Source: Ulota crispa (Eukaryota; Streptophyta; Bryopsida; Orthotrichales; Orthotrichaceae). From it: DNA of 64,000 nt. Location of the stretch: contig OY987246.1 of the NCBI GenBank assembly GCA_963920765.1, positions 14,318,868-14,382,867 on the forward strand, given 5' to 3'. This document shows, piece by piece, positions 1 through 28,420 of this stretch; the stretch's first letter is position 1; each line of letters starts with the position of its first letter. The position numbers and the translations under genes are program-made. Below the pieces are notes generated by a model, which searched no databases, was not told the DNA's origin, and was given only the letters and a program-made list of their open reading frames with translations.

Positions 1-339
1 TACTTGCAAGGTAGTGTTTTTTTTACATACCACCCATTTTATGTTGAAGGTGGTAGAATTTGACATTGAAGATATTGGCTTCTACACTAAGGAAATAATC
101 AATTTGGAGGCATAAGAGATTGTATGGACGCATGAAACAATAATTGCTTGGAGAATATACAAAGAAGGTATTTTGGCACACACAAGATTGAAATACATCA
201 CTTGAACCATGCTTTTTATTGAATATTGCAATTGTTTCACTTCAACAACAAAAGAATCATATACAAAATTGTATCCCATTTTTAATTTATTTTGTGTAAT
301 ACTTTGTACATTTGAGATTCTTGGTAGGGAATAGTTTAA

Positions 340-563
340 CCCCTGAAGGGCCCTTGGGCTCTAGAGATACGGTACTAAATACAGTTGCAATCAATATTCA
401 AAAGTTTGAATTAGCTAAAAATTAAGTGTTACAACCATACATATTGAAGGGTTGTATGATGGTGGATGAATAGTTTTTTTTGGAAAGCCCTCAAAGCAGC
501 TCAAATACAGCTGTATATGCAACCATACATACGGCCAGAGATTGCCAATGGGCTATTCAGGGG
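340..563. mobile_element. Small TTAA-flanked piggyBac-like MITE, left-arm copy
   Basis: A 224 bp segment is flanked on both sides by TTAA (336-339 and 564-567). It has inverted ends beginning CCCCTGAA, and the matching continues for about 20 bp with a few mismatches. A TTAA target and ends starting with CCC are the hallmark of piggyBac. It has no coding capacity. An identical mirrored copy lies in the right arm, so it was inserted before the arms were duplicated or homogenised. Confidence 0.7.
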
Positions 564-833
564 TTAATAAACTACCAAAAGCCATTTGGAATTCTAGGTA
601 GTATGGCTTATATAAAATAAAAAAATTTTGCCATCCAAAAAAAATTTGCCATCCCGTGAAAAGAACATTTACTGCCTTTAGTAGTACTAAAATGATCATC
701 AAATTACAAATATTACAAAATATAATGTTGCTTTTGAAATTCTACATGGATTTTTTCGTGCTAGGTGCAATTGTTGTAAATCATATGCCCATCATTATTT
801 TAAAAGAGAATTCAAAATCCTCTTGTTGTTGTA

Positions 834-1221
834 AGGTAGCAACACTCATAAGCGTGGATGTCCCCAATGGCGTGGCCTACGAGCCTGACACATAATTCAG
901 CCATTGTCAAGAACAAAAAAATGGTTTTGGGTGACAAAGTGGTAATTTTGGGTGATTGACATGATGGTTTTGAGTGCCCAATTTCACTATTCAAGAACTC
1001 CTCAAGTTAGTATTATGAACATATGAGCACACTAGATACTTCACTAAGAGTTGTTTTTAGCATCTCCTACTCACAACTATACAATTTTAGTGATTTTGGA
1101 CTTTGAAAAAAATTGAGACCAAGTGCTTACAATTGGAACTTTGAAATTGATGCCAATACGTTTGGTTTCCTTGACAATGTTTTTTTCAAAGTTCATCGGC
1201 TTGTGGGTTTAGCTACCTTAA
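834..1221. mobile_element. TA-flanked MITE with AGGTA ends, left-arm copy
   Basis: The left end reads AGGTAGCAACACTCATAAG and is preceded by TA. A degraded inverted end (GCTACCT followed by TA) lies near 1221. The same ends occur in the element at 10578-10891 and in the fragment at 28226-28420. The internal stretch 1065-1155 is matched, inverted, at 28331-28420. A TA target suggests a Tc1/mariner-like origin. The element is non-coding, and its mirror copy is at about 9348-9735. Confidence 0.5.
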
Positions 1222-1549
1222 TAGACAAGATTCCAACTTCATTCCCATAGGCGAGATATTTTGATGTACAACTCTACAATACAGTATGTAAATGGAGAAT
1301 GTTTCAGGATGGAATTGCAACAAATTTAGTAGAAACTCAAATACATTCATAGCAATAAATAATAAGCATGTAGTGCAACACTAAACATAAACAAGAGCTT
1401 ATTGGAGTGTATCAAGCCTTCATATTGTATAAGCATTATTCGTACATACATTGTTGCATTAGTTTTAATCCCAAGTTTTTAGTGTGGAAAAGCATTCACA
1501 TATATCTTGAACTAGTATAGGCACCCATCAGACCAACAGGACCCAAAAT

Positions 1550-2390
1550 GATTTCAAGCCCAATTAGGCAATTATGCAAAATATTTCCCTTGCAAGAAAT
1601 TAATTCTTACTTTTTATATATGCACTCCAATATCAAACTTTACCCAAAACATTTGTCTTTGTTTACAAAACATTCCCTTGCAATAAAGCATTTTTTGTTT
1701 TATACCCATAGAGTTTTTTACCCAAACAATATAACGAACTTCAATATTCACTCACGCAAGTTATCATTATTGTTTTGTTACCTTCATAACTTTTTTACCC
1801 GTGTAGTAATTATTCATGCAATTTTTTTATATGGGCAACCGCCAATTTGACGGGACGCAAAATAATTTCAAGCTCAATTATGCAAAATATTTTCATTGTT
1901 TTTTTTTTTTTTACTTTTCATCCATATAATCCAATCCCAAACATTACACATGCTAGTAAAATATTGGTTTTTGTTCACAAAACATTCCTTGCAGTGAAGC
2001 AGTTTTGGTCTTATACCCACATAGTATTTTACCTACACAATGAAAGGGCTACTATTTTCTTGTGGAAAAAAATATTATATGTTTTTTGTCACACAATACA
2101 ATAATTTCCCACACAAAATTTTTACATTTTTTTGTTTTTTACCTAGACAATTTTTTTACATTTTTATTTACCCACACATTTTTTTACATTTTTACTTACC
2201 TACACATTTTTTTACATTTTTACTTACCCACACATTTTTTTACATTTTTATATACCCACACATTCTTTCACCCATATCTTTTTTTTCACCCAAGCTTTTA
2301 CTTACGTAAGTTTTTACCTATGCAAGTTTTTTATCCAAATAGGTTTATTTACCAATGGGGTAAATATTCACCGTAAAAAGATCGCTAGGT
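1550..2390. repeat. Pyrimidine- and T-rich low-complexity tract with a 28 bp minisatellite
   Basis: The plus strand is very T- and C-rich, with repeated motifs such as TTTTTTACATTTTTA. Between about 2145 and 2285 a 28 bp unit containing ACCCACACATTTTTTTAC recurs about four times. Reading frames across it give only F/H/Y/T-rich peptides that mirror the repeat, so I do not call a gene. Confidence 0.7.
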
Positions 2391-3498
2391 GTGAAAATTT
2401 ACTTCATGAATATTTCGTAGGGTTGAATGTCAGGGTTTAAGGTGAAAAGTTAGGGTTTTGAGCACTTTTTATGAATGCGACTTTCATTAGGCGCGCTACG
2501 AAATATTGTGTCTCACTCTGTGTTGCAAGATTAACCCCTAAAGGCCCAAATAGTGTTTTATGGCAACATAGCAATTTTGGACAGCTCACTACAAATAGAT
2601 TTTTCAAATTTTTTCTTTGAAATTTTCACACATGATGTGTCCAAGGAGTAGCTGTAAGGCCCAACAAATTTCATAACTTTTGACTTCATGATTCAAAAGT
2701 TATTGCATGATATGTAGTTTTCTTTATTCAAGGGCAGCCTGGGCAGCTCAAAAAACTTCTTTAAAAATTACATTTTTTGATTTTTTTGTTTGAAATTGGT
2801 TCTTTAGATTTATATATATTCTTGGAAAGCTTTGAATCATTCAATTTTCATCAATGAGATGAAAGTTAAGAGGAGATTTTGTTTGCGGGCAATTATGGAT
2901 TCCCTACTCTAAAATAAACTTTTAAGTCCTATACTTTACTCAATTTTTAATATTTTGTAAAAAAAATAAAGCCAAAGTATGTAGATTGTTTATTACAACA
3001 TTTTGACCATTGGGATTGGAATTTTTGTTTTTCATAGTTAAATTCTTAACAATTTAGTGTTTTGTATCATTTCCTACTTTTTTTTACTTACTATTTTTTT
3101 CCTATGTGTTATACATTTCCAAATTATTTGAAATTTTTCAAGTTTGTACCTGACTTGCCTTGAATAATGAACACAAAAAATTACAACCATTTTGAAACTT
3201 TTTTCATACAAATATGACCTTGTGAAGTGCAGCTGCCCGGATTTTTGCAGGGACAAAAAACAACTTTTTGTCAATTCAAACTAAATCACCTAACAATCCA
3301 CATGGCACAAAATTCCAAATTTTTTTCCAAATCTTTGGATACTAGTGTACTACAAGATCTTATAGTTAGATGTGTCTAAAAATAACTTTTATCTAAAATT
3401 TGATACTTGCACTACAAATGGCAGTTTTGGAACAGTTTTGATGAAAACATAGTCAAAAGCCTTTAGGGGTTAAGGATTGGTCAGTGCTGTGATTGGGA
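2391..3498 (+). repeat. Copy of part of ATP11 intron 1, split by a TTAA element
   Basis: The segments 2391-2534 and 3470-3498 together match 7078-7250, which lies inside intron 1 of ATP11, in the same orientation. Identity is roughly 85-90 percent. The best-conserved part includes TTGAATGTCAGGGTTTAAGG. The homology is interrupted only by the element at 2535-3469. Homology stops before any exon on either side, so only an intronic segment was copied, or the rest has decayed. Confidence 0.8.
2535..3469. mobile_element. 935 bp TTAA-flanked piggyBac-like non-autonomous element
   Basis: The element starts CCCCTAAAGGC and ends with the exact inverse GCCTTTAGGGG. Each end is bordered by TTAA (2531-2534 and 3470-3473). 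The related sequence at 7211-7230 in ATP11 intron 1 carries a single TTAA (7217-7220) at the same place with no insert. That is the empty site and proves a precise insertion with TTAA duplication. No transposase reading frame is present. The termini resemble those of the 224 bp element at 340-563. Confidence 0.85.
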
Positions 3499-3600
3499 GA
3501 TATCTATGTTCATGCCCGCGCCCCCTTAGATGGAGAAATTTTCCGCCTCCTCAGGTTGATCCGTTTGGTGCTGCTTCCTCCTGTCAAGGTTTCCGCAGTG

Positions 3601-4224
3601 ATGGCGGCGGCCATTAAACCGAATTGGTGCTCAGAACTTGAGAATAAGTTACTTTAGTTGGAGAAGAGAGATAAGGAGAGGGAGGACAACCAAGAGAAGA
3701 GAAACAAGGAGATGAAGGAAATCTAGAGTAAATTGAGTCACATGGAGAAGAGAGATGAGGACAGTCAAAAGATCCAAGCCTCTATCCGCAAGAGCAACGA
3801 GGACATCATCCACGTGATTACTCCATTTCTTGGCACCAAAATTTATATAATCTCTGCTCAAATACTGAGAAGAGCCGCAGGTGCGGTTGGTGTAGAGCTG
3901 GCACAGAACCAAGGCAAGGAGCAAGGGTTACTGTACTATAGCAAAGACTTACCTCCTACTAACCTAAATCGTGCATGTCTTGCGTATATGGGGCAGGTTG
4001 ATTTGGCGGCCTTATATTGTTTAAAAAGGGATACTAAGGATATATTCCTAGCACGGAACACATGCACTCATGTTGAAACAGTCAAGGAGCTGATAGTAGT
4101 AGTGGAGCAGTGCTGGTTTGCATTTGAGAAGTTCCCGGTGTTGCAAACAAAATATGAGAAGCAGTGGATAGTGCCTGGACTAGTGTTAGATTTTAAATTT
4201 TTTTCACATCCTGTTTTTTTGTGA
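3601..4224 (+). pseudogene. Degenerate reading frame of unknown family
   Basis: From the ATG at 3601 one frame runs to a stop ending at 4224, broken by two in-frame stops near 3655 and 3725. The open C-terminal part from the ATG at 3739 is about 161 codons. The first third is charged and coiled-coil-like (repeated EKRDK/EKRNKE). The rest has a mixed composition, with a segment around RRAAGAVGVELAQNQGKEQG that looks like genuine protein. I do not recognise a family. Its place between the arms and next to copied ATP11 sequence fits a captured or abandoned gene fragment. Confidence 0.4.
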
Positions 4225-4925
4225 GGATCTTAGTTAGGGAACCTTTGTTTGCACAAAATTTTGATATTTATTTCACTCCCCATTATTTTGGTTAAACATT
4301 TTTATTGGGCTTAAATTTGTATTTGAACACCTATTTTTTGCAATAATATAGACTATGACACTTAGATTGGTTTTAAATTTTGAGTTTTTTTCACCTAATA
4401 TTATTTTTGTTAAGTTGCTTTTGCTTTGACTTTTTATCCAATATAACCTGGCCCCTTGAATACCTAACTACCTATACAAACCCATACTAGATACAATCTT
4501 GTGCATATGACAACTCCAAATCTTGTGCTCATATATTAGTTGTAAAATAATTAATGCCTTAGATTTGTAGTGTATCTTTAGGACTTTGAACATTTTCTTA
4601 GTTACTTGTAAGTTCATTATGATCTTTACCTTACATGAATGAAATCCTTGCTATATTAAGCCGCACGTCAATTCTAAAATGTGCTAAGTGATCCACCTGG
4701 GAGCCCTTGGTATAGAGTTTGCAATAGATTGAGCCCTCCTAAAATCAAATTGGATCTTCCATTGTAAATTAAGCTTAATGAATTTTATAGTATTTGACAT
4801 TTAATTAAATTTTTTGATTTGTTTGATATTGGACATTTTTGAAGAATGATTTATAGAATGACTCAATAAAATTTTGGGGAATTATTTTATGCCGAATTTG
4901 CTTTCAACCTAGAGTAGTTGAAAAA
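4225..4925. other. AT-rich intergenic stretch, no recognisable feature
   Basis: About 700 bp of AT-rich DNA without a long frame, terminal repeat or recognisable homology to other parts of the window. Confidence 0.6.
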
Positions 4926-4927
4926 TG

Positions 4928-5580
4928 ATGGAAAAATAGGAGGCTCATATTCTACTTAGGCTCTAAAACCGTCCACCTCCTCAAATGTACTTCATTTGTA
5001 CATGCTTTTTTTCATGGATTTCAAAATTGTACAAGTAGAGTACATTTGAGAAGGTGGACAGTTTTAGAGCCATATGGCCTTTCCACTTCAAAATTTCATA
5101 ACTAAATCCACAAAGCTCCAAAAAATATGAAACAACTTGGGTTACATGGCAATTCCTCTTGTCTTTCAAGGAAAACTTACTGAAATATAGTTCAAGAAGT
5201 TTCACCTCCCAAAATTTTGTTTCAGCCCTGAACAAAAGAGGCTCATAAACCAACCATCTAAGAGTTGAAACTGAATTTTGGGAAGGTGGAACTTCTTGAT
5301 ATCTTTTTCAGTAAATTCTCCTTGAAAGACAATAGGAATTGGCATTTAACTCAAGTTCTTTTGTATTTTTTAGAGCAATGTGGAATTAGTTATGAAATTT
5401 TGAAGTGGAAAGGTCATAGGGCTCTAAAATGGCGTACCTCCTCAAATGTATGCCCACTATACATTTCTAAAAGGCTAAGAATAAGGCATGTAGTGATGGG
5501 GTTCATTTGGGGAGGTGAGCGGTATTAGTGCCCTAGCGGAGTTTGAGCCTCTTATCTTAAATGGTTGGTTTATGAGCCTC
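4928..5580. repeat. Foldback element, about 650 bp, near-palindromic
   Basis: The left half (about 4940-5250) is the inverse of the right half (about 5265-5560) with moderate divergence. Paired landmarks are GCTCTAAAAC with GGTGGAC against the mirrored segments, and GAAATTTTGAAGTGG against CCACTTCAAAATTTC. A second nested pair, GGCTCATAAACCAACCAT (about 5230) and its inverse (about 5560), frames the centre. A diverged single-arm relative lies at about 20480-20660. It is non-coding. The whole can fold into one long hairpin. Confidence 0.8.
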
Positions 5581-5599
5581 TTACCTTCCATGTATCATC

Positions 5600-6170
5600 A
5601 ATTCCCTTAACTCCAAAACAACCCTGGAAATTCCCGAGCTTCTAGGAATTTGCTATAATTTGAACAAAAAGCCAACATTTTGATAAGTTGTATCAATTCT
5701 TTTTGAGTTGTAACCATGTAAAATCAAACTAGACATGTTAGAGATCACATTAGAAAAGAAATCACAACAATATCTCTTATGGATTGAAACTTTATAATGC
5801 TTGATCATGAGGGTGTTAAAACTGTGAAAGTCATTTGAGGTCTTTCAAGCTTCTTTTGACGTGTCAAATTTAAAAATCTGGTCACCAAAAAAATATGAGG
5901 TTAAAGGGCCTATCATGCATAACCCCAATCAATTTATGACTTTTCAAAATCTACTCTACATTATTTTTAAATGAGTTTCTAATGTGATTTTTTTTCAAAG
6001 ATCTAGTGTACTTGAGGCTCACTCCCAAGAGCCCTCAACACTACATAAAGTCAAGATTGCAATGGACACCCGTGCAAAAAATCTTGAATAGAAAAATCAT
6101 AATCAATCATTTGCAAAATCAAATTGTCGAAACTAAAGCTAAGTTCAAAAAGCATTATTCAAAAATAGAA
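5600..6170. repeat. Dispersed repeat, copy 1 (partner at 43.6-44.2 kb)
   Basis: This roughly 550 bp segment matches 43630-44180 in the same orientation at about 65-75 percent. Shared blocks include GCATAACCCCAAT, CAAGAGCCCT with AACACTA, and GCAAAAAATCTTGAATAGA. It has no coding content and no clear termini. It is an old transposon-derived repeat of unknown class. Confidence 0.65.
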
Positions 6171-6613
6171 ACTATAAAAAATAGTAATTTGATGAAGTTT
6201 TATTTAAGTTCAAAAATTGGTCGAGGACAAATTTTATCCTCAGGGTCGTTTTGGGGTTAAGTGAATCTCCCAAAACTTTCGAGATCTACGTTTCAAATTG
6301 TTTTCTACCGACCCTCTTGTTAGGTACGGCATTGCAAGCAACTCAGCGTTCGTCATAGAACTCCATATTATCACGTACAGTATAAAGTGTGTTGTTAGAG
6401 AAGTCCAGAGGGTCTTCATCGTCTGAATCAGATGCCTTGCTTTGTGCCGGAGCTCTATCGTGTTTTTCCAGTTTCTCGCCGTTTTACTTTTCTGCTCTGC
6501 AATCCACCACACCATCGCCGCACAGCTTCGTGTTCCGCGTCTTTCAACGCCCTAGCATTTTAGCCAAATCTCTGGTAAACGTTGTTGCAACGATCTTGCA
6601 AGGCGTCGTCCTC

Positions 6614-8700
6614 ATGAGCAACCTTTCTCGCTCCCGCAGATTGCTACCTCTTCTGCATCGCATTGCCGCAGGCGGTCAACTTTTAGGTATCAAGGCACCC
6701 TGTCACTTGGAGCGATCCATCTCCACCTCTACATCTCGAACTCTAAGCGACGACGACGTTGCATCATCACCGTGTCCGCAATTATGGAGCCGCGCCAATT
6801 TTGCGCGGTCCAAGTTTGCCAGCGGTTACACGGCACTTGCGCCGAAGAAATTGGACCAGATTATGAAGATCGAGACCGTGATTTTCTCGCCACCGGAAGA
6901 GATCGTTGAGATTTGGAATGATGTACGTCGAATAATTTCTACTCTCAGCACTTTCGTTTTTATTGTAGGTTTTAGCTTCCGAGCTTCGTCGCTTCTGGTT
7001 TTTTAGGTTAACTAGTCGGTTGAAGGTGGCAGTAGTGGATTTGTGGTTCTTTACTCCTGGCCTTAGATAGTGTGCAGCGGTGTGAACATTCATTTCATCA
7101 ATCTTCCGTAGGTTGAATGTCAGGGTTTAAGGTGGAAAGTTAGGGTTTTGAGCACTTGTTATGAGTGTGGCTTTCATTAGGTTACCAAATATTGTGTCTC
7201 ACTCTGCGTTGCAAGATTAAGGACTGGTCAGAGCTGTGATTGGGAGATAATTAAGGTGTGGTTTGCTTTGAGTCAACACTTACGCAAAAGCCGTTTTTCT
7301 CGATTTGAATGAGAAATCCACCTGGAGTTTCAGATGGTCAAAGTAGATATTGTTTTCCTTTTTCTTTCTTAGAAGCATTTTTCTTTCCGACCTCTTTGGA
7401 GTAGGCGTAACAAAATTCTAAGTACTCTTACTCATTCAATCTGAACTAGGTCATGTCTATTGTCATCCACATTGTTAGGTCTAAAATATAAACGCAGCCC
7501 CGATCATGCAAGGTACCATTACATTTTGACTTGGACCTCCGCTTCAAGTGGCCACATCCAATAAAGCAGGGGTACTTTTGTATGATTGTATTTGAGTGAT
7601 CTCTTGCTCTGGTCGTAAGCATTATTCAAAATGAGCATCCTCCTGCACTACCTGACATCTTTCCATATATTTGAGCGTTTTGGTGCATTCTTATGTATCA
7701 CATTTCTCTTTTCGGTGTCAAGGTTATTTAATCCGGCCTGTTGTGTATCTGGTCAGTATCATATTGGAAGAGGACATATAAGTGCCGTCATGGGGAGCGA
7801 ACTGTACAAAGCCTTCGAACAAAGGGCCAACGAATGGTACAGATGTCAAACCTTGGAAACGTGTTTTCTGGATGATTGTCCATCTTCTGCAACCTAGCCT
7901 TTTTTTTTCTCTCACTAATACATGTTGTTACAAAGCTTACTTTGCATACAATCTTGCAGAAAGAAAGCATTTCATTTGCTTATCATCTGAGTGATTTTTC
8001 CTTCGACTTGTGTGCAGTCCTCTCTTTGTGTTGCCTTTGAGGAAAGGCACTGGGTTCATTTCCGTTGTTGTGCAAGGTACACATCAACTCTTGCTTACAA
8101 ATTATTTAAACAGCTTTGATATATAAGTTCGTAGACAATAGCCACTTCACTGCCACAAGGTTTTAGGATCATCTAGGTAAGCGACAGTTTCTTTACTAAA
8201 GGCAATGTATCGAGCTTTGTCACAGTTGCTTCGTATCTGATGGCCATCGTGAGGTGACTGACAGCACAAATGCCTTATATGCTCTTCACGGCTTTGGAAG
8301 ACTACAGAAGTAGAGGGACTGAGGCTTCTCCCTACTTCACAGTGACCCATTTCACCGAGTTGGTTCCTACCAAGGGTCTAGTGTTGGTTAGGGGCGACAT
8401 TGTTTTCACCAGCAAGCTCTCTGATGACGAGGTATGCTTCTTTGCTGGTTTCTCACCAGTTGCCAAGTTCTCACGAGTGTGACTTGTCCCTGTCTTGCTA
8501 AAAAATGGAATGCTTACAGGTTTGTGTTTAGGACTGACGCTTCCTTGAATGGAATGCAGGCGGAATCACTGTTGAAGACTGCACATTCGTTCTACATCAA
8601 CGACGACAGATACAGGAAAGTGAAGCGCTTTAACAAAGACAGTCGAGAGTTTGACTTTAAAGAGGTTTTACAAGAGCTTAACATTCCACTTCAGGGCTAG
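6614..8700 (+). CDS. ATP11: ATP11-family mitochondrial F1-ATPase assembly factor, five exons
   Basis: ATP11 proteins bind the free F1 beta subunit in the mitochondrial matrix and keep it from aggregating until F1 is assembled. Exons are 6614-6922, 7757-7836, 8018-8076, 8265-8431 and 8560-8700, giving 251 residues. All four introns are GT-AG, and the frame is continuous when joined. Residues 1 to about 75 are rich in Arg and Ser with few acids, as in a mitochondrial presequence. The ATP11 domain follows with PKKLDQIMK, YHIGRGHISAVMGSELY, PLFVLPLRKGTGF, MPYMLFTALEDYRSRGT, LVRGDIVFTSKLSDDE and a C-terminal EFDFKEVLQELNIP. All are close to the plant homologue as I remember it. The ATG at 6614 is chosen because the presequence starts there. 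The gene appears intact although it lies between the two inverted arms. Intron 1 holds sequence that is also found at 2391-3498. Confidence 0.92.
7078..7250 (+). repeat. ATP11 intron 1 segment duplicated at 2.4-3.5 kb, empty TTAA site
   Basis: This 170 bp segment matches 2391-2534 joined to 3470-3498. The single TTAA at 7217-7220 marks where the 935 bp element entered the other copy. It is non-coding and spliced out of ATP11. Confidence 0.8.
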
Positions 8701-9347
8701 TGCTGGGAATGGCTGAAGTGATGCAATGAATTGTGAGTTATCCTAAACAATTCCTGGCTCAGAGACGAACAAGAACGAGGTTCAGGAGCACAATTCATTC
8801 GAAGCCTTCGTTTCTAGTGTCGGTAAGTTGCATGAAAATGTAGCATCATGCATGTCTTTTAGGTAAGGTTAACGTATGTAGTTCGGAAGGATGCTTTCTG
8901 GTGAGAGTATCTGCATGATAATTGACTTTATGCAAACGCGGGACTCAGCATCCTCCTAATATAATTTTACATTGTCTCAATACGCATGTAGTGTGTACAA
9001 CAACTCACGCAAATCCAATATCGATGCATTACCAAAGAAATTCAAGATATATGTGAAGATATATGTGAAAGCTTTTTCACACTAAAAACTTGGTATTGAA
9101 ACTTCATTGATGCAACAATGTATGTACGAATAATGCTTATACAATATGAAGGCTTGATACACTCCAATAAGCTCTTGTTTATGTTTAGTGTTGCACTACA
9201 TGCTTATTATTTATTGCTATGAATGTATTTGAGTTTCTACTAAATTTGTTGCAATTCCATCCTGAAACATTCTCCATTTACATACTGTATTGTAGAGTTG
9301 TACATCAAAATATCTCGCCTATGGGAATGAAGTTGGAATCTTGTCTA

Positions 9348-9735
9348 TTAAGGTAGCTAAACCCACAAGCCGATGAACTTTGAAAAAAACATTGTCAAGG
9401 AAACCAAACGTATTGGCATCAATTTCAAAGTTCCAATTGTAAGCACTTGGTCTCAATTTTTTTCAAAGTCCAAAATCACTAAAATTGTATAGTTGTGAGT
9501 AGGAGATGCTAAAAACAACTCTTAGTGAAGTATCTAGTGTGCTCATATGTTCATAATACTAACTTGAGGAGTTCTTGAATAGTGAAATTGGGCACTCAAA
9601 ACCATCATGTCAATCACCCAAAATTACCACTTTGTCACCCAAAACCATTTTTTTGTTCTTGACAATGGCTGAATTATGTGTCAGGCTCGTAGGCCACGCC
9701 ATTGGGGACATCCACGCTTATGAGTGTTGCTACCT
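9348..9735. mobile_element. TA-flanked MITE with AGGTA ends, right-arm copy
   Basis: Mirror image of the element at 834-1221 inside the right arm. No differences between the copies were noticed. Confidence 0.5.
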
Positions 9736-10005
9736 TACAACAACAAGAGGATTTTGAATTCTCTTTTAAAATAATGATGGGCATATGATTTACAACAATT
9801 GCACCTAGCACGAAAAAATCCATGTAGAATTTCAAAAGCAACATTATATTTTGTAATATTTGTAATTTGATGATCATTTTAGTACTACTAAAGGCAGTAA
9901 ATGTTCTTTTCACGAGATGGCAAATTTTTTTTGGATGGCAAAATTTTTTTATTTTATATAAGCCATACTACCTAGAATTCCAAATGGCTTTTGGTAGTTT
10001 ATTAA

Positions 10006-10229
10006 CCCCTGAATAGCCCATTGGCAATCTCTGGCCGTATGTATGGTTGCATATACAGCTGTATTTGAGCTGCTTTGAGGGCTTTCCAAAAAAAACTATT
10101 CATCCACCATCATACAACCCTTCAATATGTATGGTTGTAACACTTAATTTTTAGCTAATTCAAACTTTTGAATATTGATTGCAACTGTATTTAGTACCGT
10201 ATCTCTAGAGCCCAAGGGCCCTTCAGGGG
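10006..10229. mobile_element. Small TTAA-flanked piggyBac-like MITE, right-arm copy
   Basis: Mirror image of 340-563, flanked by TTAA at 10002-10005 and 10230-10233. No differences from the left copy were noticed. Confidence 0.7.
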
Positions 10230-10577
10230 TTAAACTATTCCCTACCAAGAATCTCAAATGTACAAAGTATTACACAAAATAAATTAAAAATGGGATACAA
10301 TTTTGTATATGATTCTTTTGTTGTTGAAGTGAAACAATTGCAATATTCAATAAAAAGCATGGTTCAAGTGATGTATTTCAATCTTGTGTGTGCCAAAATA
10401 CCTTCTTTGTATATTCTCCAAGCAATTATTGTTTCATGCGTCCATACAATCTCTTATGCCTCCAAATTGATTATTTCCTTAGTGTAGAAGCCAATATCTT
10501 CAATGTCAAATTCTACCACCTTCAACATAAAATGGGTGGTATGTAAAAAAAACACTACCTTGCAAGTACACTTACTA

Positions 10578-10891
10578 AGGTAAGAACACCCATAAGCATT
10601 AGTGTCCCCATAAGCATCACCTCTAAAATCTTGGAAAATCTATAGAAGTAAATAGATGTAATTACAAGAATGTACAACATGTGAACATGAAACCTTGGTG
10701 TTGGTTATGGGTACAATGGTAGTTTGCTCTTTAAAAATTCACAACTTATTTTGACAATATCCAAATAATACATTTGAAAGTGCAAACCCATTATTTTTCT
10801 GTTGCTACTAGAATCCTATAATTTGCTAGATGTTTATTAATAGTGATCATGTTCAAAACCTTTAAACTAACACTTATGGATGTTCCTACCT
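10578..10891. mobile_element. 314 bp TA-flanked MITE, Tc1/mariner-like
   Basis: The left end AGGTAAGAACACCCATAAG is mirrored at the right end (inverse of AGGTAGGAACATCCATAAG). TA dinucleotides flank both ends (10576-10577 and 10892-10893). The terminal repeat extends about 26 bp. It is related to the elements inside the arms and to the fragment at 28.2 kb. It lies immediately outside the right arm and is non-coding. Confidence 0.7.
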
Positions 10892-11151
10892 TAAGATGTA
10901 ATGGATGAAAACTATAAAAACCAACATTATCAACACTTTATGCCAATGAAAATCTATTTCCAATGGATCAAGGGAATGAGACTGTTGTAGGAAGAAAAAA
11001 AAGCACTGAATCAAAAGGAAGTTTAATGTGTCAATCTTAAATCCTCATTACATTTATTTTGAATTCACTACTCATTATAAGATATATAAACTAGGAGTCA
11101 AGACCAACACACGCATGTATTAACAAAATTTTGAGCCCACATTAGATTCTC

Positions 11152-11405
11152 GGGGAATGCTATGTTGTGAGCAAGGATCTGTGAGCAGTGAGTTTAGATT
11201 TTTTTTTTTGGTTAAAATATTGAATTCAACTTATAATTGAGTGCATAGGGCACTATGATTATGTATTTTAAACTTCCACATCTTGGAAAACTTGTCATTT
11301 TTTGAGATTTTCATTACCTTTAAGCTCAAAATTAGTTCTTGCTCATAGAATTTTTAGCTCACCGCTCACGGCTCACCATTTTACGCTCACAAAATGGCAT
11401 TGTCC
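11152..11405. mobile_element. MITE-like element with GTGAGC-rich inverted ends
   Basis: The left end GGGGAATGCTATGTTGTGAG and its neighbouring GTGAGCAGTGAGTTTAG are mirrored, with mismatches, by the segment 11350-11405 (inverse reads GGACAATGCCATTTTGTGAG). The span is about 254 bp. I could not settle a target duplication, so the class (hAT or Mutator) is open. Confidence 0.5.
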
Positions 11406-13070
11406 GTATAATTTGGATTATTTGCAATAGCATGTGTAAATGTGTACAATATACTAATAATGAAATTTGGTGTTTTGGTGCTTATAATATTATTTATCCT
11501 ATCATTCAACTCACTCTTATCCTCATTTAGTTAAGAACTAGTGTTCATGTTGACAATTAGTGTGAATGTTAAATACCAGTTTAGTGCAAATTGAATTTGC
11601 CAACATAAAATGTCAGTGGGCTTCAAACATAGAATTTGGTCTACAAGTTTCTCACCTTACAAGTTCCCCATTCCCTAGTGAATTGTTTTCGTTCACTCCT
11701 ACACCAAAAGTTTGAAGCACTTGTGAATTTGCAGTTAGGATTTTGGGCACAAGTCGAGATCTCAATATGTGAGACAACAATGAGGATGATAGATTGTCAA
11801 GTTGAGAGAAGCGCGCCTTGGGAACATACATGGTGTCTCGCTGCAATCATGCATTGCTAATAAAAATCGTCTTTGGTCTTGATCTTCACTTTTCAAATTT
11901 TCAATCTTCATATCTTCATGTCTTCAAATCGTCGTGTTTTAATAAAAACAATGAAAAAAATCACAAATAACAAGTCTTAGAAAAGCTGCGACATTTTTTC
12001 TAGTGCTGCAGATGGTTTAAACATCCAAATGCTAAATGTAATAGCAATTTGAAAAGCTCTTTTAACCTTCTAACATCTTTGTAAATTTCAACTTAATCTA
12101 AGCTATTGTCCAAAAGTTATGCGGATTCAAAATAGAGGCTCTTCTTCCTCCTTACAAACTAAACACAGCCTCTATAAACCTCTATAACTGTTGTTCTACA
12201 AATCACCTATAGAAATGTGATATCAATTTAGAAAGATAATACTATTGGCTATAACTCCTAAAATTTTCACTTCAAAATAAAACTCTGATCAAAAGTGTTA
12301 GTCAATCAAAGTGTGGGTCTCAATTTATTAGAGAGCACCCAAACCTTCAACTCCTATGTACTATAATTTCTTCAAACGATTCCAAATAGAATGATTGAAA
12401 ATAATACAAAAAGCTATAACTACAAACTATCACTCCTAAAACTTTGTGATGAAAATTTCTTACTGTCCAAAAGTTGTAGCTCTTCAAAATTTTAGCATTC
12501 TCATAACAAAATGGCAGCCACCTCCAATCTTTCACACCTTCATAACTTTCTTCTTCAAGCTTCAAATCTCAAGTTTAAGGACTTTTTAGAGAGTTAAGAC
12601 TGAGATGAACACTTCCTTTTAAATTTTGTTGCAAATTGATAAATAGATTATAAGCTATGGTTTGTCAAAGTTTTAGCCTTTCTTCATAGTTGGACTTTTT
12701 GACTCTAAAATTCAAACACTCATAACTTTTGCATCAAAACTCCAAATTAAACTTGCAAATTCATTTTGGAAAGGTAATTACACAAAAAACAACTCTTTCA
12801 AATTTCATTTCAAAATCATGTATATACAAAAAATTCTCTCTCTTTAAAGTTTTACAATTTCTCCCCTCTTCTCCTTAACACTCATATACTAACTTCTAAC
12901 AACTAAGGTATCTTTCTTCTATAATTTTGACCCTATTTAGGGTAGGGAGGTGGGGCACATCAGCCCATGCTCTTCTCTATCCTAACCCACCATAGATATC
13001 AAACCATTTTTTTTTTACACCTTTGCCATTGATTTCTAAATCCTTAGTATTTTTTATTTAAACAAAAGCA
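11406..13070. other. AT-rich intergenic DNA, no gene recognised
   Basis: This stretch has many short direct repetitions of phrases such as AAAATTTCACTTC and ATAACTTTC, typical of decayed transposon sequence. No frame is protein-like, and I found no defined terminal repeats. Confidence 0.6.
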
Positions 13071-13184
13071 AAATATATGAGCCTTCCAAAACATCTAAAT
13101 AAACATATAAAAATGATTAAATTACAAAGTAAACACCACCGTAAAGTGGCCACGTGCTCTTGCGGGCATATAATAGCATCAAAC

Positions 13185-13475
13185 GCTTATCTTCAGTTGC
13201 GAAATTGTGGACTTGGTTGGCCGGAGAAGCGGTTGTTTTTGGCCACCCGCCGGTCCGAGTTTGAATCTCATTGGATTTGTCAAACAATGATGATGGCCCA
13301 CGGTTTGGCAGCTAGTGAGGTAGGAAATTGGCTCAGCCAACCCGCTACCTACCCCCTTGAGCTGTGCATATGACAAGACGACGCAGTGCACTGGAATCTC
13401 TAGCCGCTGCGCTGTCACCAAACCGTGGTCCTTACCACGACCACCTCTTTTGCCACAACTGCTGATTTATTGAAA
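13185..13475 (+). mobile_element. Possible tRNA-derived SINE
   Basis: A GC-richer island in AT-rich DNA. The segment GAGTTTGAATCTC near 13257 resembles a polymerase III B box, and TGGTTGGCCGG about 45 bp upstream is a poor A box. The 3' part contains the pair GGTTTGGCAGCTAG and ACCAAACCGTGG. No poly-A tail or target duplication was established. Confidence 0.3.
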
Positions 13476-13679
13476 TCAATACAAACATAAATAAATAATA
13501 AATATCTACAACATGGAAAGATTTCTATCAGGACAACGCGCAAAAGTAAGTTTCTAAAGTTCACTCCTTACGTGAATCATGTTATGAATGAATTTCAGAG
13601 ATGAATCACCTTGCTGTGTACTAGACAATTCACAGAGATGAATTGCAACGTGAGTCACTTGAAAAAGTTTATGTATGAA

Positions 13680-13835
13680 GCCTCTATTAGTGTAGTTATT
13701 GAGAAAGAAAAAAAAGCAAGGGATAAAGGCAAGCATAAAAGGCAAGTAAAAAAGACGAGAAAAAAAGGCAAGCAAAAAGTCTAGAGAAAAAGGCAAACAA
13801 AAAAGGATTGAGAAAATGGCAAGCAAAAAGCTTAC
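13680..13835 (+). repeat. Purine-rich minisatellite, block 1
   Basis: Irregular repetition of units like AAAAAAGGCAAGCA and GAGAAAAAGGCAAG on the plus strand, almost free of pyrimidines. Related to the longer block at 14138-14390. Confidence 0.75.
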
Positions 13836-14137
13836 ACTAAATATTGTATTTAGGTTGTTTTGACAATTAGATTGCCTTACCTTGGAAAATTACCTCATGA
13901 CTCATCACTTGGACACTTATAGGTGCATGTAACTCTCTAAAAACTTGAAATTCACACCGTTTACAACTTGGAAGCTGTTATTTTTTTGGTCTAAAGCTTT
14001 GTTATTGTTGCTAGACATTTTAAAAGTTGTTTATTGCTGTAATTACTGATGAAGATCACTGTAGCAATAGAAAACATTTAAACAATATAAAATTTCAAGA
14101 AATTAGTCGGAGGCAACCTAAATGCAATATTCAGTGT

Positions 14138-14390
14138 AGAAAAAGGCGAGCAAAAAAGCTTAGAGGAAAAGGCGACACAAAAAAGCGACAAAAAAAGGCA
14201 ACAGAAAAAGGTGAGGGAGAAAGGCGACAGAAAAAGGTGAGGGAGAAAGGTGAGATAAAAAGGGGAGCAAAAAAGCTTAGAGGAAAAGGCAACAAAAAAA
14301 GGCGAAGGAGAAAGGCGACAGAAAAAGGCGAGGGAGAAAGGCGACAAAAAAAGGAGAGGGAGAAAGGTGAGAGAGAAAGGTGAGGACATG
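14138..14390 (+). repeat. Purine-rich minisatellite, block 2
   Basis: About 250 bp built from units such as AAAAAGGCGAGGGAGAAAGG and GCGACAGAAAAAGG, giving a long purine strand. The apparent frames on both strands (Lys/Arg/Glu-rich or Ser/Phe/Leu-rich) are products of the repeat and not genes. Such tracts can form triplex DNA. Confidence 0.8.
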
Positions 14391-14689
14391 TGTTTTTTTT
14401 TTGGGTAGTTTAAGGCCCAAATGCCTCAAAAAAAAAGGCTAGCTTCAAGCCTATAGAAAAAAAAAGGGTGAATTTTTTTCAAAAAATGCCAGATTGTAAT
14501 AATGAAAATCGCATTGTAGCCTAGGCTTTCATAAAACTCTTATCAAATTGAAAATTGATGCCATCATTTTTAAAATTATTTGAGCATTTTAAATTTTTTG
14601 AGGTGTTGTCTAATCCAATTCAATACAATATTTAAGTAATGGCAATGGTTATAATGATGTTTTCAAAAAATGATCAATGAATAGTTTTT

Positions 14690-16798
14690 ACCTACAAAAA
14701 GAATCCCATACTGCTCCAAAAATTCATGAGTTGGGGCCACCTCCAAAATAGGGACGGAGCCAGCAAGCTACAAACTATTTTCAAAAAATGCCACCCAAGC
14801 ATCGCTGAGAAAACTAAAAAAAAAAAACCCTGGTGAGGACAGAAGGCAGCTCTGTCTGAGGTGGCAGGGCACATTGCGGGCACAGTGCGGACAAGAGCAG
14901 GCATGTGCCCAGGAATGGCGGAGAGGGCGGACGCGTATGGCGAACCTTTGCATTCCCACGGAATCGTCGAAGCCGCCACACGACCACGGCGTCCATCCAT
15001 GCCACTGGAGTTTGCGAGCTCATGCAACTCAAAGCTTTCTGTGCCGAGTAAGCAACCAGCCATGGTGAGTGCTTACCAAACCTGAACAACCGAGAGCTCT
15101 TTTGTGAAAAAGGCAACTCAAGTACAACGCATCAGGACACTAATTGCATAATTTAGACCGTTAGACGGAGAAATTTGAGTGAAAGTGGCTTTGCGTGAGG
15201 TAAAATTGCCTCATTGGAAGCGAAATGTTAATGCTACACTGAAGAAGACGGGTGATAGCAGAACCTGACAAGACAAGCGTAATTTACCTCACCTTTTTCT
15301 GCAAATTTGGAGGTCGCGGGATGCGTGTCAACAGGGTTTTATCCATGCGGGATATTGGTTGCGTCTCGGCAAGTGGATCCTCGCCAAAAGCACCCCCCCT
15401 GCTCTCCGATCAAGTCACGATCGCCGGCGGGCTACGTTGCGAGATCCTCATAAGTTAGCGTAATCCACACTGTAACTTAATAGTAGTTGCAAGGAGCTCC
15501 CACACTTGCGCTGCTCTTTTTTCTTGCTGGCAGGCTTTCTCAATTTGCACGTCCACTTGCACAGCTGCCACATCCAATTTGCACTCTACTGAGAGTATTA
15601 CACATCATTCCCAATCCCTCTGTGGTGTATTGCAGCATTTTGGGAAAGCAGGCGAGCTATGAAATCACTGTTCTTGATCGTCCTTTGATTACCTGCAATT
15701 CTACTTGCTGCATCAGTAGCTTTGAAAATTGAGATCCACGGCGTGCGAGACAGTTTGAGGGAGGAATCGATGCATTTTGATCTCGGAGTGCTCCGACAGT
15801 TTTGCTTTCCACAACTCAGGTCCCTGTTCTTGGAGGTACGACTGTTCGCCTGCTTTGTTGACAGGAGCTTTTAGTAGGGTTTCTACGGTGCCTGCGTGCT
15901 TATTGCATTGAGATTCGTCTGTACATGAGACTTCGATGATTGATTGCTTGATTGCTCTTTTCCTGCTTCCAGGAGAAGCAATTGTTTAGTAGATGCCGAG
16001 ATGATTTAGTCTGCGGTGTTCGTCCAATGATCTTTGAATTTTGCCCGTTTGGAGCGAGATGTGCTGTAAGTGCAGAGAGCGTCATCCATGCACCCGCTCT
16101 GTTGACAGTCTGGTGGTGCAGTGGATCGGAATTGGTCGTCCATGTGATGTCACTCCACCAGAGTGCTAGCAGTGTGGGGGTGAGTAGAGGTTTAGGCCTG
16201 GACCACCAACAATGTAATGGTGTTGCAGATCAGCTGCATGCACAATCTCCCGAACTCGCTAGGACATCATCTAATCCCAAATACATATAGATTTTTTCTC
16301 ACGTTTGTCCTTTGGAGCTACGAGCCATGAGTAGGTCGAGGTTCGTTTTGCAACAGTTGACACGCATATGGCATATGTTTAGATCAATAGGACTAAGAAA
16401 CAGAATCTCAATAGAGCCCATATTCGGGGTGTTGGCAACTAAAGCACTGGATATGGAGAGCACGGTTTTACAAGTCTCATAACCTTGTCCTGGTCTTCTT
16501 CTTGAACAGTTGATTCAATCGAGATTCAACAATTGAGCTTGTGTCTGGTAATGAAAAGTACAGCCACAACATTCTTGCCCTTTCTGTGCTTCAACGTGTT
16601 AGATCTCGGAACAAAGCCCTACTTTCACGTTGCTTACTCCACTTGTGAGGTCGTGCTCTGTTTGTCAGGAAACCCTCAATAATCCGAACGTTATCATATG
16701 GTTTTGGTTTCTAATGGAGTGAATGTTTTCTTATGCAGGAATGCTCTAGTAACTAGGGCTGGACTGTAACAATCCCCTCTCTGATCTTACAAAAAAAG
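14690..16798 (+). other. Region upstream of BBD, possible promoter and leader
   Basis: About 2.1 kb with higher GC than the DNA to its left. It contains no frame I can support as a protein on either strand. Its position directly before the BBD start codon suggests promoter plus untranslated leader, perhaps with a leader intron. I could not identify a start site or TATA box with confidence. Confidence 0.4.
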
Positions 16799-18426
16799 AT
16801 GGCAACGACCGTGGTAGCCATGAGCATGTTGCCTACGACAAGCTTCCACCATAGAAACCACATGGCATTGACCTCTGTCACACATAACCGCGCACTCTTA
16901 CGAACCACAACATTCGGCGGCCCATCCACGCGCTTTTCGCCATACCCTGGCACCATGAAAGCAGCCACGTCCACAAAGCTGAACTCCAGCAGGTCGTTCA
17001 ACAACGAAAGCATGGCCGAGAATTTCAGCGAGAACGACGAAGACTACGCCGACTGTCACATCGTGGAAGCTCGGGAGGTTCGGAGCGGTCCCGATGGCTG
17101 CATCATCAAGATGCGGGACGGGAAGGTGCTCAGATGCGCGCACAACAACACCAAATCTGGAGCAGTGAACCCGGTGTATGATTCACAGCCAGCAATCGTT
17201 TTGCAACTCAACGATGGCTCCAACTTGCTTCTCCCCATCGTCGTGCTCGAATTGCCGAGTACGATGCTGTTGGAGGCTGTGAGAAATGTCCACATTGCTC
17301 GCCCTACTGTGTACCAAGTCATGAGCAAGATGCTGGAAGTCTCGGGATATCGTGTGAAGCTTGTTCGTGTGACGAAGAGAGTGAATGAGACTTACTTTGG
17401 CAGAGCTTATCTTGTCAAAGATGGCGATGGCAGTGCGCCTATGGTTAACCTTGACATCCGCCCCTCGGACGCAATCAACCTCGCTGTGCGGTGCAACATT
17501 CCCATCCAGGTTCGTACACCGTTCATTTCCTTCGTTACGGCATTTTTTGAATTCCTTTGGCAGAATGCATTGCTAATGGTATTGCAGCCTAGGTTTAGGG
17601 TTAACAAGAATCTTCTCGTTCTCTGGTTTCTAATTTACTACTTCCTCTGTCTCTGTAAAAGTATCCAAAAAGCTTCCTTGCAAAGGATTAACTGTGATTT
17701 TAGACGTTGTGCTAGTGACACATGCATTCTAGAATCAATGTACCATCTGCCAAATGTATGCAAAAATCTCCAGCTTTGATGTCCCAAATTCCATGCAAAA
17801 AGTACCATATTTTTGCATGTTGCCAGCTCCTCATTATTGATGATTTCATGATTAGTAGCAACAAAGGTGTTTCATATGGGCAAGGCCAAGCTTGCAAGGA
17901 GAGGAATGGCTCTCTAATCGCTTAACTTGCTCCCACCCATGAGATCATTGAACATGGCAAACACTTTCTCAGCGTTTGAAACCAACAAAAGGGAGCTTTT
18001 TAGTGGTACAAGAAATGTGACTAATTTGGAGTTCTTTAGAGGGACAGAGGGAGCAACAATTTGAACGGCTCAAACGTTGTGTAGCCTATTTATGTGTACT
18101 TAACAATACATCTGTTCTCACATTGTCATATGCTCCACCCGGCGTTCCTTTTGCAGGTGAGTAAGGAGCTGGCAATCAAAGACGGCGTCCGCATCGTCAA
18201 TAACCCTACAAAGCTCCCCTCGAGCATCACCATCAAAGGGCAAGTGGTCATGGACATGGACACGCCACTTTCCGGAGATTGCGATGACGCGCAAGAGTTC
18301 ATCATTCTTCGAAACATGCACATTGCAGCTGTGGAGGAGAGGTTCATCGACGCAGCCAAGCTACGCAATGAGCTCTCGCAGTTCAGGAATACTCTGAACT
18401 CATCATCGCAACAGACGCAGACCTAA
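16799..18426 (+). CDS. BBD: Bifunctional nuclease of the plant BBD/wound-responsive family
   Basis: BBD proteins are reported to have RNase and DNase activity and are linked to stress and abscisic acid responses. Exons 16799-17509 and 18157-18426 encode 326 residues, close to the Arabidopsis BBD1 length (about 325). The join is phase 0, CAG|gttcgt to gcag|GTGAGT. Residues 1 to about 65 are Ser/Thr-rich and lack the family domain. The bifunctional nuclease (DUF151) domain follows, with AREVRSGPDGCIIKMRDG, LPIVVLELPSTMLLEA, GRAYLV and the typical DIRPSDAINLAVRCNIPI. The C-terminal exon carries a UVR-like helix (IAAVEERFIDAAKLRNEL). The 647 bp intron contains a 413 bp Stowaway-like MITE. Catalytic behaviour and localisation are inferred from the family. 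Confidence 0.93.
17641..18053. mobile_element. Stowaway-like MITE inside the BBD intron
   Basis: The ends CTTCCTCTGTCTCTG and the inverse of CTCCCTCTGTCCCTC match the Stowaway terminus. TA precedes the left end, while the right flank reads CA, so the target duplication has decayed. Internal sequence is shared with the copies at 42689-43269 (same orientation) and 62138-62567 (opposite). It leaves the splice sites untouched. Confidence 0.85.
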
Positions 18427-24190: not shown

Positions 24191-27100
24191 TCAAGGCTGC
24201 GGTCGTGACTGCACAACGTAAACGTCTTCACCAACAATGAACCCCTCGATGTCCAGTGCAGAACGGAAATGCTGCTCCAGGAAGAACCCGACAGTAGCGA
24301 GACGCTGCCCGACTTGCTCTCGAAATCCGGAATCCGCAGAAAGAGCTTGACTGCTGTAATCCACCACGTGCTTCGCCACAGTGCCATCCGCTTCCGCACC
24401 GCTCGGCACCGCAACCTGGTGGCTAAAATTGGCAAACGAGAGCGTTTTGACGGTTCCATCGAACTTGTTAGCAGCCAGGCGCCATGGACTGCCCAAGGTC
24501 CCGGACGCGAGCGTCTGCCCCAACCCCACGGCCAACTCCGCCTGCAAGACTTTGGTGTCATGATCGATGGGGCTCACCGTGTGCAAGACGAAGCTGAGCT
24601 CGGGGGACAGAAGCTCCTGGACAAGGACGGCCATGGAGGCATCGCTCTGCAACACTCCTGAAATGCGCCGGCTCAGCACTGCCGGCTTGGAGAACAAGGA
24701 AGCCCACACTTGCGCGGTTGCTTTACGGAAGCTCTCCGGCTCCGAAAGCTTCACGTTGGCTATGGATTCGTGCGGCCCTGCTCCTGACATGCCAGCTAAG
24801 TCATCCACGTTCGCACTTGACCTTAATATCAACCTGGCAGAACTCGAAAATGCGCCTGAGGATGCAAGCCCATCCAGAACGGCGTCGGAGACCGGTTGGG
24901 AGGCTATAAGCGACCGTAATTCGGTGCAAACGCTGTCCAGATCCTCTAATGAAGCCGTCTGAACTCGTTCAACGAGTGCGTCAAACCTTTCCAAAGAGGA
25001 GCTTCGTTCAAGAGCGTCCTCCATAGCGCCGAATGGAATCACCTTCCCGCGGGGAACACGAAAGGAGGCGGGTATTCCCTGATCGCTGTGCACCGTCCTC
25101 GCCTGCTCCGTCAAGAGCGCCAATGCGCCGCAGACAGCTGCTTTGGAGCCAGAGTTTTCGGTTGTGGCTTCTGAGAGGTCGAGCACTGTTCCGATCGGGC
25201 TTCGAACGACCGAGTGCTGTACGGGATCTGCAACTTTGGATAAAGTGTTTAGCCTTATATACGAAGGACCGACCTCGTCATTCACCAAAGTCTCTTTTAG
25301 TTGTGACTTCGTCTCTTCTTTCGGCGGTACAAGATCGTATGGTCTGATGTGCACAAACTCAGAGGACGCCACGAATTCCACCGGCCGGTTCAGCAGGGGA
25401 CGCAGAGCGGCGATCTTGTCTTGGTCGTCGCATGTGACGAATACCACTTTCTCCTCACGAGCACGGACGCCCAAGTGTGACAAATGTGGGAGCTCGTGTT
25501 GGAGGATCACCCCTGCGACATTGGCGCCAGCGGCATTGACCTCTTCGTGGCAGTCTGCCTTCTTCACCAGGAGGATGAGAGGACCGATGACGGACGACGG
25601 TACAGCGCCGGGCATTAATCGATCAACTTCGATGAGCATGCCGGCAGCTCGTCCAGGCATAATGGCGTCGAATCCATCGCCTCCAACAAGCGCTCGGATG
25701 GCCTTGAGAAGGAGAGAGCATAGTTTTGACACTTGAAAGACCACGCTTGCTCGTACGTCCGCTTCGGCGTAAGTTTTCATGGCATTTTCCGGGATACCCA
25801 AGGCGTTGCCGAGGGTTTCGACGTAGCCAGGGTACCGATAGATTTGCAGCACTGTGTCGGAGTAGCTTGAAGCGAGCCGGCGTGCGCGGTTCACGGTTGC
25901 CTTGAGTCGTAGCGCCCACACCTTGGTGTCATTCGCGTTGAATGCGGAGACGACTGCTGTTGCAGACCATGCCAGAAGCTCGTTGTTGATGGCGATGCAT
26001 TCCGGTAGATCCAGTCCTGATAAACCCAGTTGTTGGATCCCCATCGCAAGGCTGGTCAAGGCGGGTGTCCACTGCGCCACTTTTCCGGTTCGCACTTCGT
26101 CCGCTAACCAGGACGCCCCCCCGCGGTCTTCGAACGCGTTCAGCATTCGGTTCAGGAACAGAAACGAGTAATCCTCCAACTCTAACTCAGCAAGGCGCCA
26201 TTTCTGCCAAGTGGCGACGGCTTCGTCCGACGAGTCGTTGCGAAGCCCGCTTTCTAGTCCCTTGGCCAAGATTTTACGTAAATTGTTCAAGGCGTGAATC
26301 GTGTCTAACAATGGCTCGATGATGTTTGCGCCGCTGATCTTCTCCAGCGCCTCCAACCGTTCCTTGCTCCACAGAAAATGCTCCAAAATGGCGTGATAGT
26401 CTCTGTCGATTGATGGACGCAGGGCTTCCAGCTGCTCGATCAAGCTTCCGGCATTGAAGAAATCCTTGAGTTCTGACACGAAGATCTTGAACTCCTTCAC
26501 AAACGCGTCGCCATACTCCCCCGGCGTATTAGTAATCCGCGCAAGCAACGCCTCCGTGGTCATTAAATCCTCCGGTCCTGCGCTACGGTGCAACTTGTTC
26601 TGCAGTTTGTGTGTAATCTCTTGCCGCAACTCCTCGGGGATGTCGTCCATGTTGAGTATCCTCGTCAACGCTGTGAACTCGGGCTTGAAGGATGGCAAAC
26701 AGAGGTGAATCTTGCGAATCACTACAAGCTCCCGCAAGCTGACGTCGCGCTGCGCGGAGATTCGTTCCAGCTCCACAAAGATCTGGCGAGAAACGTCGAT
26801 ATGCTTGTCAGGTGGGTAATGTTGACCATCCTCGTGGCACGCGATTCGGCCTGTGTTGATCCATTTGAGATACACCGCAATGTTGACGAGTGTCCTAAAC
26901 CTGTCTTTGACGGCTAGCTCGCCGGTCAAGAGCGTCCCTACGACCTCAAGCTTCTGCCACCAATTGCGCGCGTTCTTGTCGCCCTCGACTATCTGCAGTG
27001 CCGGCCCATCCAACCCCGTGACGTCCCACTTCTCACCCCTCTCTCCGCCTCCCTGCCATCGCCCTGCAAAGCCGGAAATCTCCTCTACTCTGTGCACAAA

Positions 27101-27884
27101 ATCGGCCCCCTGGGATTGTGCTTGCTCCTGTTCACCGCGCACCACTTGGAGATTTCTAGATCCAAATTGAAGGTCCTCATCGGTGCAATCCCAATGCGTA
27201 ACGATCTCAAACTCCCCCTCACTCGGTAGCGACAGGACGCGGTTCGGCCCTCCCTCCCACACGACATCGCCATTGTGGTTCACAATGATGTGCTTGTACT
27301 CTAAAGTCTCCTGCGGATTCGCTTCCAACTCCACCACCCACCCGGCCTCCGTCCATTGCAACGGCACCCGATCCTGCCACGCGCCTGTGCAGGACGCCGA
27401 ACCCATAATTTCATGCGACTCACCGAACTGCACCTGCTCCCGAATTGCCGATTCGATATCAAAACTTGGGAAGAACCAAAGCACATCAAAGCAATTCAAA
27501 AATCAATGAGGAACCAAAGAAGAGAGAAGTTAGGGTTACTGGCTCAAAATCTCCCCGAATGTGCACCTGATGCTCAATTCGCAGCCGCACTTTCACCTTC
27601 TTCTCAGATGTCACCATCAAACCAGCACGCGATGCTTGTTGTCGCTGCATCGTCGTCTTCGTCGTCGCCGTTCTTTTCCACTTCGAGCGACCGCCATCAC
27701 CGATTGCTGCGAATTTGATTGTTCCCGCCTTCGGCAATCCATTCCCTCGCAGCTCGCATTCGTGCAGTGGGATGATCCGGGCGGAAGCAGCAGCAGCAGC
27801 GGCCATGGCGAAAGACCTACAGGAACTCACCACGCTTCGGCGAAATCTTGGGATCCGCAAGCGGAGTGCACAAGGCAGCAGCAT
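24191..27884 (-). CDS. PWD: Phosphoglucan, water dikinase (PWD/GWD3), plastid
   Basis: PWD phosphorylates the C3 position of glucosyl units in starch already phosphorylated by GWD1, which opens granules for breakdown. Exon 1 is 27884-27567 and exon 2 is 27433-24191. The 133 bp intron has a CAG|gtgcac donor and a gagcag|GTG acceptor. The product is 1186 residues (Arabidopsis about 1196). An Arg-rich plastid transit peptide covers roughly residues 1-90. A CBM20 starch-binding domain follows (KVKVRLRIEHQ joined to VQFGESHEIMGS, with the intron inside the domain). The phosphohistidine region LPHLSHLGVRAR puts the catalytic His at residue 759. A PPDK-type nucleotide-binding domain follows, with LILRSSANVDDLAGMSGAG, and the protein ends VYVVQSRPQP. 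The second ATG at 27806 is possible. One short intron in a gene of this size is striking. The long exon is otherwise full-length and open, so I judge it functional. Confidence 0.95.
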
Positions 27885-28225: not shown

Positions 28226-28420
28226 AGGAACACCCATAAGCGTGAGTTTAAGCATTACAGGGTATATACTTTGATCAAACAAGTTTGAAAATAATATTTG
28301 TAGGTTAATAAGAAGGAATGAAAACTATTGAGATCAGTTTCAAAGTCTCAATTGTAAGTATTTGTTCACAAAGATTTTTCAAAGTCCAAAATCACTAGAA
28401 ATCCATGGTCGTGAGTAGGG
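28226..28420. mobile_element. Fragment of the AGGTA-ended MITE found in the inverted arms
   Basis: It begins ACAGGAACACCCATAAGCG, the same terminus as the elements at 834 and 10578. The stretch 28331-28420 matches 1065-1155 inverted, including TTTCAAAGTCCAAAATCACT. The far end is not recognisable, so it looks truncated. It lies about 340 bp upstream of PWD. Confidence 0.6.

Follow-up and report, generated by a model that had tools for sequence, protein, structure and literature searches.

A complete, spliced ATP11-type gene of Ulota crispa is enclosed by two near-identical inverted arms of at least 1459 bases, which, judged from the sequence, probably represent a recent inverted duplication with a single-copy spacer (rough probability 55%, a gene-conversion variant included). 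The original prediction had offered such a duplication as one of two readings, and it is the one that best fits the evidence, namely the near-identical arms, the step in identity at their inner edge and the diverged homology found there. All positions refer to the window, i.e., the whole stretch of 64,000 nucleotides that was analysed.

Near-identical inverted arms enclose a 7,650-base interval

Comparison of the window with itself (blastn, word size 16, pairs of at least 200 bases) identifies one inverted pair of exceptional identity:

1-1459, minus strand: left arm, cut off by the window start; its inverted counterpart is 9110-10568
9110-10568, plus strand: right arm, starting about 0.4 kb past the ATP11 stop codon

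Positions 1-1459 pair with the reverse complement of 9110-10568 without a gap and with 1 mismatch in 1459, in good agreement with the arms of at least 1460 bp, free of indels and differing by one substitution, that had been read from the sequence at first; the interval between them, put at about 7.6 kb in that reading, measures 7,650 bases. The sole mismatch lies at left position 654, which is C in the left arm and T in the right copy in the same orientation, giving an arm divergence with a 95% interval of 0.002-0.38%. The left arm contains eight homopolymer runs of 6-8 bases each, and because no indel separates the arms, these runs have equal lengths in the right arm. The second-longest inverted pair in the window covers only 628 bases at 75%, so the arm pairing is far beyond chance; the next-longest pairings of any orientation, 749 and 710 bases at 67% and 73%, lie inside one tandem array. 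The inverted arm pair is confirmed as a real feature of the sequence, and its length of at least 1459 bases is a lower bound, as the left arm reaches window base 1 and its outer limit lies beyond the window.

An arm that runs off at base 1, combined with near-perfect identity that extends to the homopolymers, would also be produced by a misassembly, with the window start at or near a contig end in a repeat and one consensus placed twice. The left arm would then either not truly lie beside position 1460, or be a diverged arm whose own sequence was replaced by that of the right arm. Where contigs end in repeats, such a run-off is common. However, the difference at 654 argues mildly against such an artefact, being unexpected from a single consensus used twice unless made by polishing, and we regard misassembly as unlikely while leaving it some weight. 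A foldback chimera formed in the library through a missed adaptor was considered separately and rejected on the reasoning that such reads would be nearly spacerless, as opposed to the 7,650 bases present here.

Elsewhere in the window, an inverted pair at 17641-18053 and 62138-62567 (75% over 452 bases) overlaps in part the frame of a gene with a Bifunctional nuclease (BFN) domain (16757-17776, plus strand, E 1.9e-17), and a degenerate tandem array at 55852-56797 has a unit of about 49 bases with longer periods of 139-152 bases.

The spacer carries a single complete ATP11-type gene

The interval between the arms contains the following gene:

6614-8700, plus strand: complete ATP11-type gene (F1-ATPase assembly factor) with five exons
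6614-6922, 7757-7836, 8018-8076, 8265-8431 and 8560-8700, plus strand: ATP11 exons, the splicing of which gives a continuous frame to the stop

All introns are of the GT-AG type (4/4), and the predicted product has 251 amino acids plus the stop. Residues 74-241 match positions 86-270 of the 271-position Pfam ATP11 profile (E 3.7e-34), and the solved ATP11 relative 2p4f (PDB) also matches the product (E 8.1e-6). With five exons, GT-AG introns and an ATP11 domain, the gene between the arms is complete and spliced, as had been proposed. It is placed asymmetrically, its start codon lying 5.1 kb from the left inner edge. A tblastn search of the window revealed no second ATP11 copy, the five matches at E up to 1 being the gene's own exons. 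A passage of PMC7607909 states that loss of Atp11 is lethal in Arabidopsis.

When the two halves of the interior were compared with each other, no inverted homology was found except two matches that arise from a local inverted element at 4933-5582, which spans the dividing point. This element, about 0.65 kb long with arms of about 285 bases at 77% and a relative at 20.5 kb, is likely an old MITE. Another insert, of 0.94 kb at 2531-3473, carries 15-base inverted ends (TTAACCCCTAAAGGC) with TTAA on either side and is, judged by its TTAA site, presumably piggyBac-like. It splits a repeat of about 170 bases (2388-2530 and 3470-3502), of which an uninterrupted relative with a single TTAA (7079-7249) sits in ATP11 intron 1. 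A 165-codon frame at 3727-4221 (plus strand) reads protein-like but matches no Pfam profile with an E of 0.1 or less. Farther along the window, a 1,103-codon stop-to-stop frame at 24194-27502 (minus strand), apparently of one exon and with CBM_20, GWD1_pHisD and PPDK_N domains, represents a glucan/phosphoglucan water dikinase-like gene.

Diverged inverted homology continues past the inner edge of the arms

The arms do not end cleanly at their inner edge, a feature absent from the first description of this locus. Instead, a short diverged inverted homology abuts the near-identical arm:

1460-1511, minus strand: left inner-edge block, with diverged homology to 9041-9109
9041-9109, plus strand: right inner-edge block, containing a 12-base tandem duplication at 9044-9067

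Inward of 1459 and 9110, the likeness goes on in diverged form for about 52 bases on the left and about 69 bases on the right, and on both sides it ends at TTCAAG. The aligned core is identical at 44/48 positions, with a 5-base indel at the transition; if the tandem duplication is read in the other register, a 17-base exact block appears. This homology scores 76, and when the same 80 bases were shuffled 2,000 times, the highest score was 29. The step in identity, from 1 difference in 1459 in the arm to 4 in 48 at the edge, is marked (Fisher p = 4.4e-6, a somewhat flattering figure in that the boundary was picked after looking). Past 1511 and 9041 no homology was detected, the best score within 400 bases being 20, where 300 shuffles average 19, and this rules out arms that continue inward as an old decayed palindrome. 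Nor was another copy of the edge block found in the window, where the remaining matches are 11-15 bases long (E 0.5-0.7).

Identical inverted copies around a single-copy segment, as found here, are also what a staggered-break inversion of the ATP11 interval predicts, for the isochromatid or chromatid model described in PMC7584159 leaves inverted duplications at both ends of the inverted segment. The O7 duplications of Drosophila subobscura, the case treated in that account, resemble the present locus in that inverted duplications bound a segment. However, the model as presented there involves no diverged homology inside the arm edge, in contrast to the 44/48 found here, and the stagger would need to be at least 1.46 kb. 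An origin by staggered breaks appears improbable to us.

The arms look like ordinary intergenic sequence

The composition of the arms bears on whether they are ends of mobile elements. Features recognized in them are:

336-567, unstranded: MITE-like piece with TTAACCCCTGAA inverted ends, flanked by TTAA, within the left arm
10002-10233, unstranded: mirrored MITE-like piece within the right arm
1066-1172 (right-arm copy 9397-9503), unstranded: dispersed-repeat segment of the arm

The MITE-like piece is at the same place in both arms and would therefore, most simply, predate the copying of the arm. Its TTAA is a candidate target duplication, and no empty site for 336-567 was seen. Besides the two arms themselves, the 64 kb contains a match at E 1e-3 to no more than 108 bases of the arm, which recur at 28313-28419 with about 80% identity. 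With E values up to 0.1 allowed, the right arm (9110-10568), which as its mirror copy was scanned also in place of the left arm, contains no Pfam domain. Searches with a 27-base exact arm pattern in viral_contigs and with a degenerate junction pattern in genome_contigs returned 0 matches each, in collections not expected to include this kind of genome. The arm looks like ordinary intergenic sequence and not like a coherent element end.

As a dispersed repeat makes up part of the arm, the two arms could be independent insertions, in opposite orientation, of one recently active repeat family. Against this, no more than the 108-base part recurs in the window, and fresh copies should match to their ends, whereas the last 50 bases or so differ by 8% plus indels. 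The inner ends were also compared with those of known insertion types. Long terminal repeats (LTRs) have TG...CA ends and, when paired, lie in direct orientation, but here the inner end reads CTTGAA and the arms are inverted. Helitrons end in CTRR followed by T, with a hairpin just upstream; a Helitron-like end, CTAG followed by T, is present on the left only, with a weak hairpin (fold z 0.50), and on the right CTRR is lacking and the hairpin has 7 base pairs (fold z -0.24), neither hairpin standing above shuffles. We consider a double insertion quite improbable. Neither simple staggered breaks nor a simple double insertion accounts for the diverged rim.

No transposase domain accompanies the arms

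The other reading in the original prediction, a giant foldback or MULE-like element, takes the arms as very long terminal inverted repeats (TIRs) and the ATP11 gene as cargo. Symmetric, near-identical arms do surround the gene, and TIRs that are alike outside with a diverged inner rim might well give the picture seen here. In the literature, MULE and foldback transposons are likewise described with long inverted arms around an interior able to hold gene sequence (PMC3310237, PMC6446971; see also PMC4079207). However, a Pfam search for a transposase or its remnant in six frames of 1460-16700 (E up to 0.1) yielded only ATP11 plus a sub-cut-off HARP match (E 0.04), the sole match in 9044-16700 and located outside the right arm. 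The scans were run in the stretches 1460-6400, 6401-9043 and 9044-16700, and frames crossing the joins were not read through. The weight of this result is limited by the fact that non-autonomous elements need no transposase.

Arm length and content point in the same direction. MULE TIRs are typically 100-500 bases long according to a passage of PMC3310237, and the relevant part of PMC6446971 states 14-500 bases, with one case of 640 bases in a table; the arm here, at no less than 1459 bases, is longer than what is typical, and it contains the MITE-like piece and the dispersed repeat. With no transposase domain, an arm beyond the typical MULE TIR length and an arm made of ordinary repeats, the foldback or MULE-like element finds no support, and a transposon with ATP11 as cargo is, in our judgement, doubtful at best; the element ends, and with them the sites of any target duplication, would lie outside the window. 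Still less probable is the stronger form, in which a mobile foldback-type element has the arms as its long terminal repeats and flips or moves an intact, spliced, essential nuclear gene together with its promoter.

A transposon of another kind does occur in the window. At 36688-41418 (minus strand) lies a CACTA-type element with a Transposase_21 (tnp2) domain at 39644-40399 (E 1.1e-48) and sub-cut-off matches to DUF4216 at 36688-37404 and to Transpos_assoc at 40579-41418. Its tnp2 transposase, the glucan water dikinase domains and the presence of introns together make up a gene content that suggests a plant or alga.

A recent inverted duplication is the most likely origin

An inverted duplication with a single-copy spacer is recognized by near-identical inverted copies, inverted homology at the junction of spacer and arm, and a spacer that is neither palindromic nor duplicated nearby. 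Here the copies differ at 1 position in 1459, the junction homology is 44/48, and the spacer is single-copy and non-palindromic within the window. A kilobase-scale spacer, near-identical inverted copies and diverged edge homology together make the locus resemble the anatomy of a fold-back inverted duplication. This reading draws on the inner junction, the outer end of the duplication lying beyond the window. Most likely, the locus is an inverted duplication of ordinary kind and recent date, and its junction is informative.

The arms, the identity step, the diverged inverted edge homology and the intact gene are directly seen, and from them we infer a copying event, its direction and its age. 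At the outset, two short and already diverged repeat copies, now at 1460-1511 and 9041-9109, would have flanked the ATP11 neighbourhood in opposite orientation. After a break or stall on one side, possibly the left, the end there may have paired across 7.5 kb with its inverted relative, through either fold-back or strand invasion (break-induced replication, BIR). Outward copying would then have placed a mirror image of one flank, 1,459 bases or more in length, on the other. In a variant with the same outcome, longer diverged inverted repeats would have existed beforehand, and a single gene-conversion tract would have homogenised them to about 50 bases from the inner end. Fold-back, BIR and gene conversion leave the same picture here and cannot be told apart.

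The substitution rate of plants is near 7e-9 per site per year. With divergence read at this rate, the arms would roughly date to tens of thousands of years, with an upper bound of a few hundred thousand, and the inner-edge block to perhaps a few million years.

Comparison with published inverted duplications

The proposed recent inverted duplication at the ATP11 locus has counterparts in described systems. According to the part of PMC3907307 that treats human inverted-duplication junctions, a spacer is present at 21/21 sequenced junctions and measures 766-70,466 bases (median 3,428), a range that includes the 7.65 kb spacer found here. Inverted repeats of 296-330 bases, 82-95% identical, are given for 3/21 of these junctions, inverted microhomology of 2-8 bases for 13/21 and insertions for 5/21. 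These human inverted duplications with a disomic spacer, attributed to fold-back, thus share with our locus a kilobase-scale single-copy spacer and inverted homology at the spacer edge. However, the patient copy-number variants described there span megabases and are linked to terminal deletions, translocations or rings, whereas 1,459 bases of arm are visible here.

For rearrangements at the PLP1 locus, passages of PMC4352052 discuss BIR, MMBIR and homeologous recombination at inverted repeats. Copying primed at similar inverted repeats is the shared element, yet the outcome described there is a duplication with an inverted triplication, a feature not seen at our locus. In yeast, as described in part of PMC8604942, switching of template between inverted repeats makes imperfect arms identical and flips spacers; the arms in that description are up to 16 bases long with short spacers, in contrast to the arms and spacer described above.

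Consequences for the ATP11 interval

Recombination between the arms is predicted to be able to invert the ATP11 interval and leave the gene intact, and upon such a flip ATP11 would travel as a unit with the 5.1 kb of DNA upstream of it. With 1,459 bases or more and 99.9% identity, the arms are of sufficient length for inverted-repeat recombination. Should the reading proposed here not hold, the locus would be one more local segmental duplication. If it is real, a gene that is lethal when lost in Arabidopsis (Atp11; so stated in PMC7607909) would be placed in an invertible cassette, and the junction at this locus would be a clean, natural case in which to study how an inverted duplication is seeded from short diverged inverted homology.
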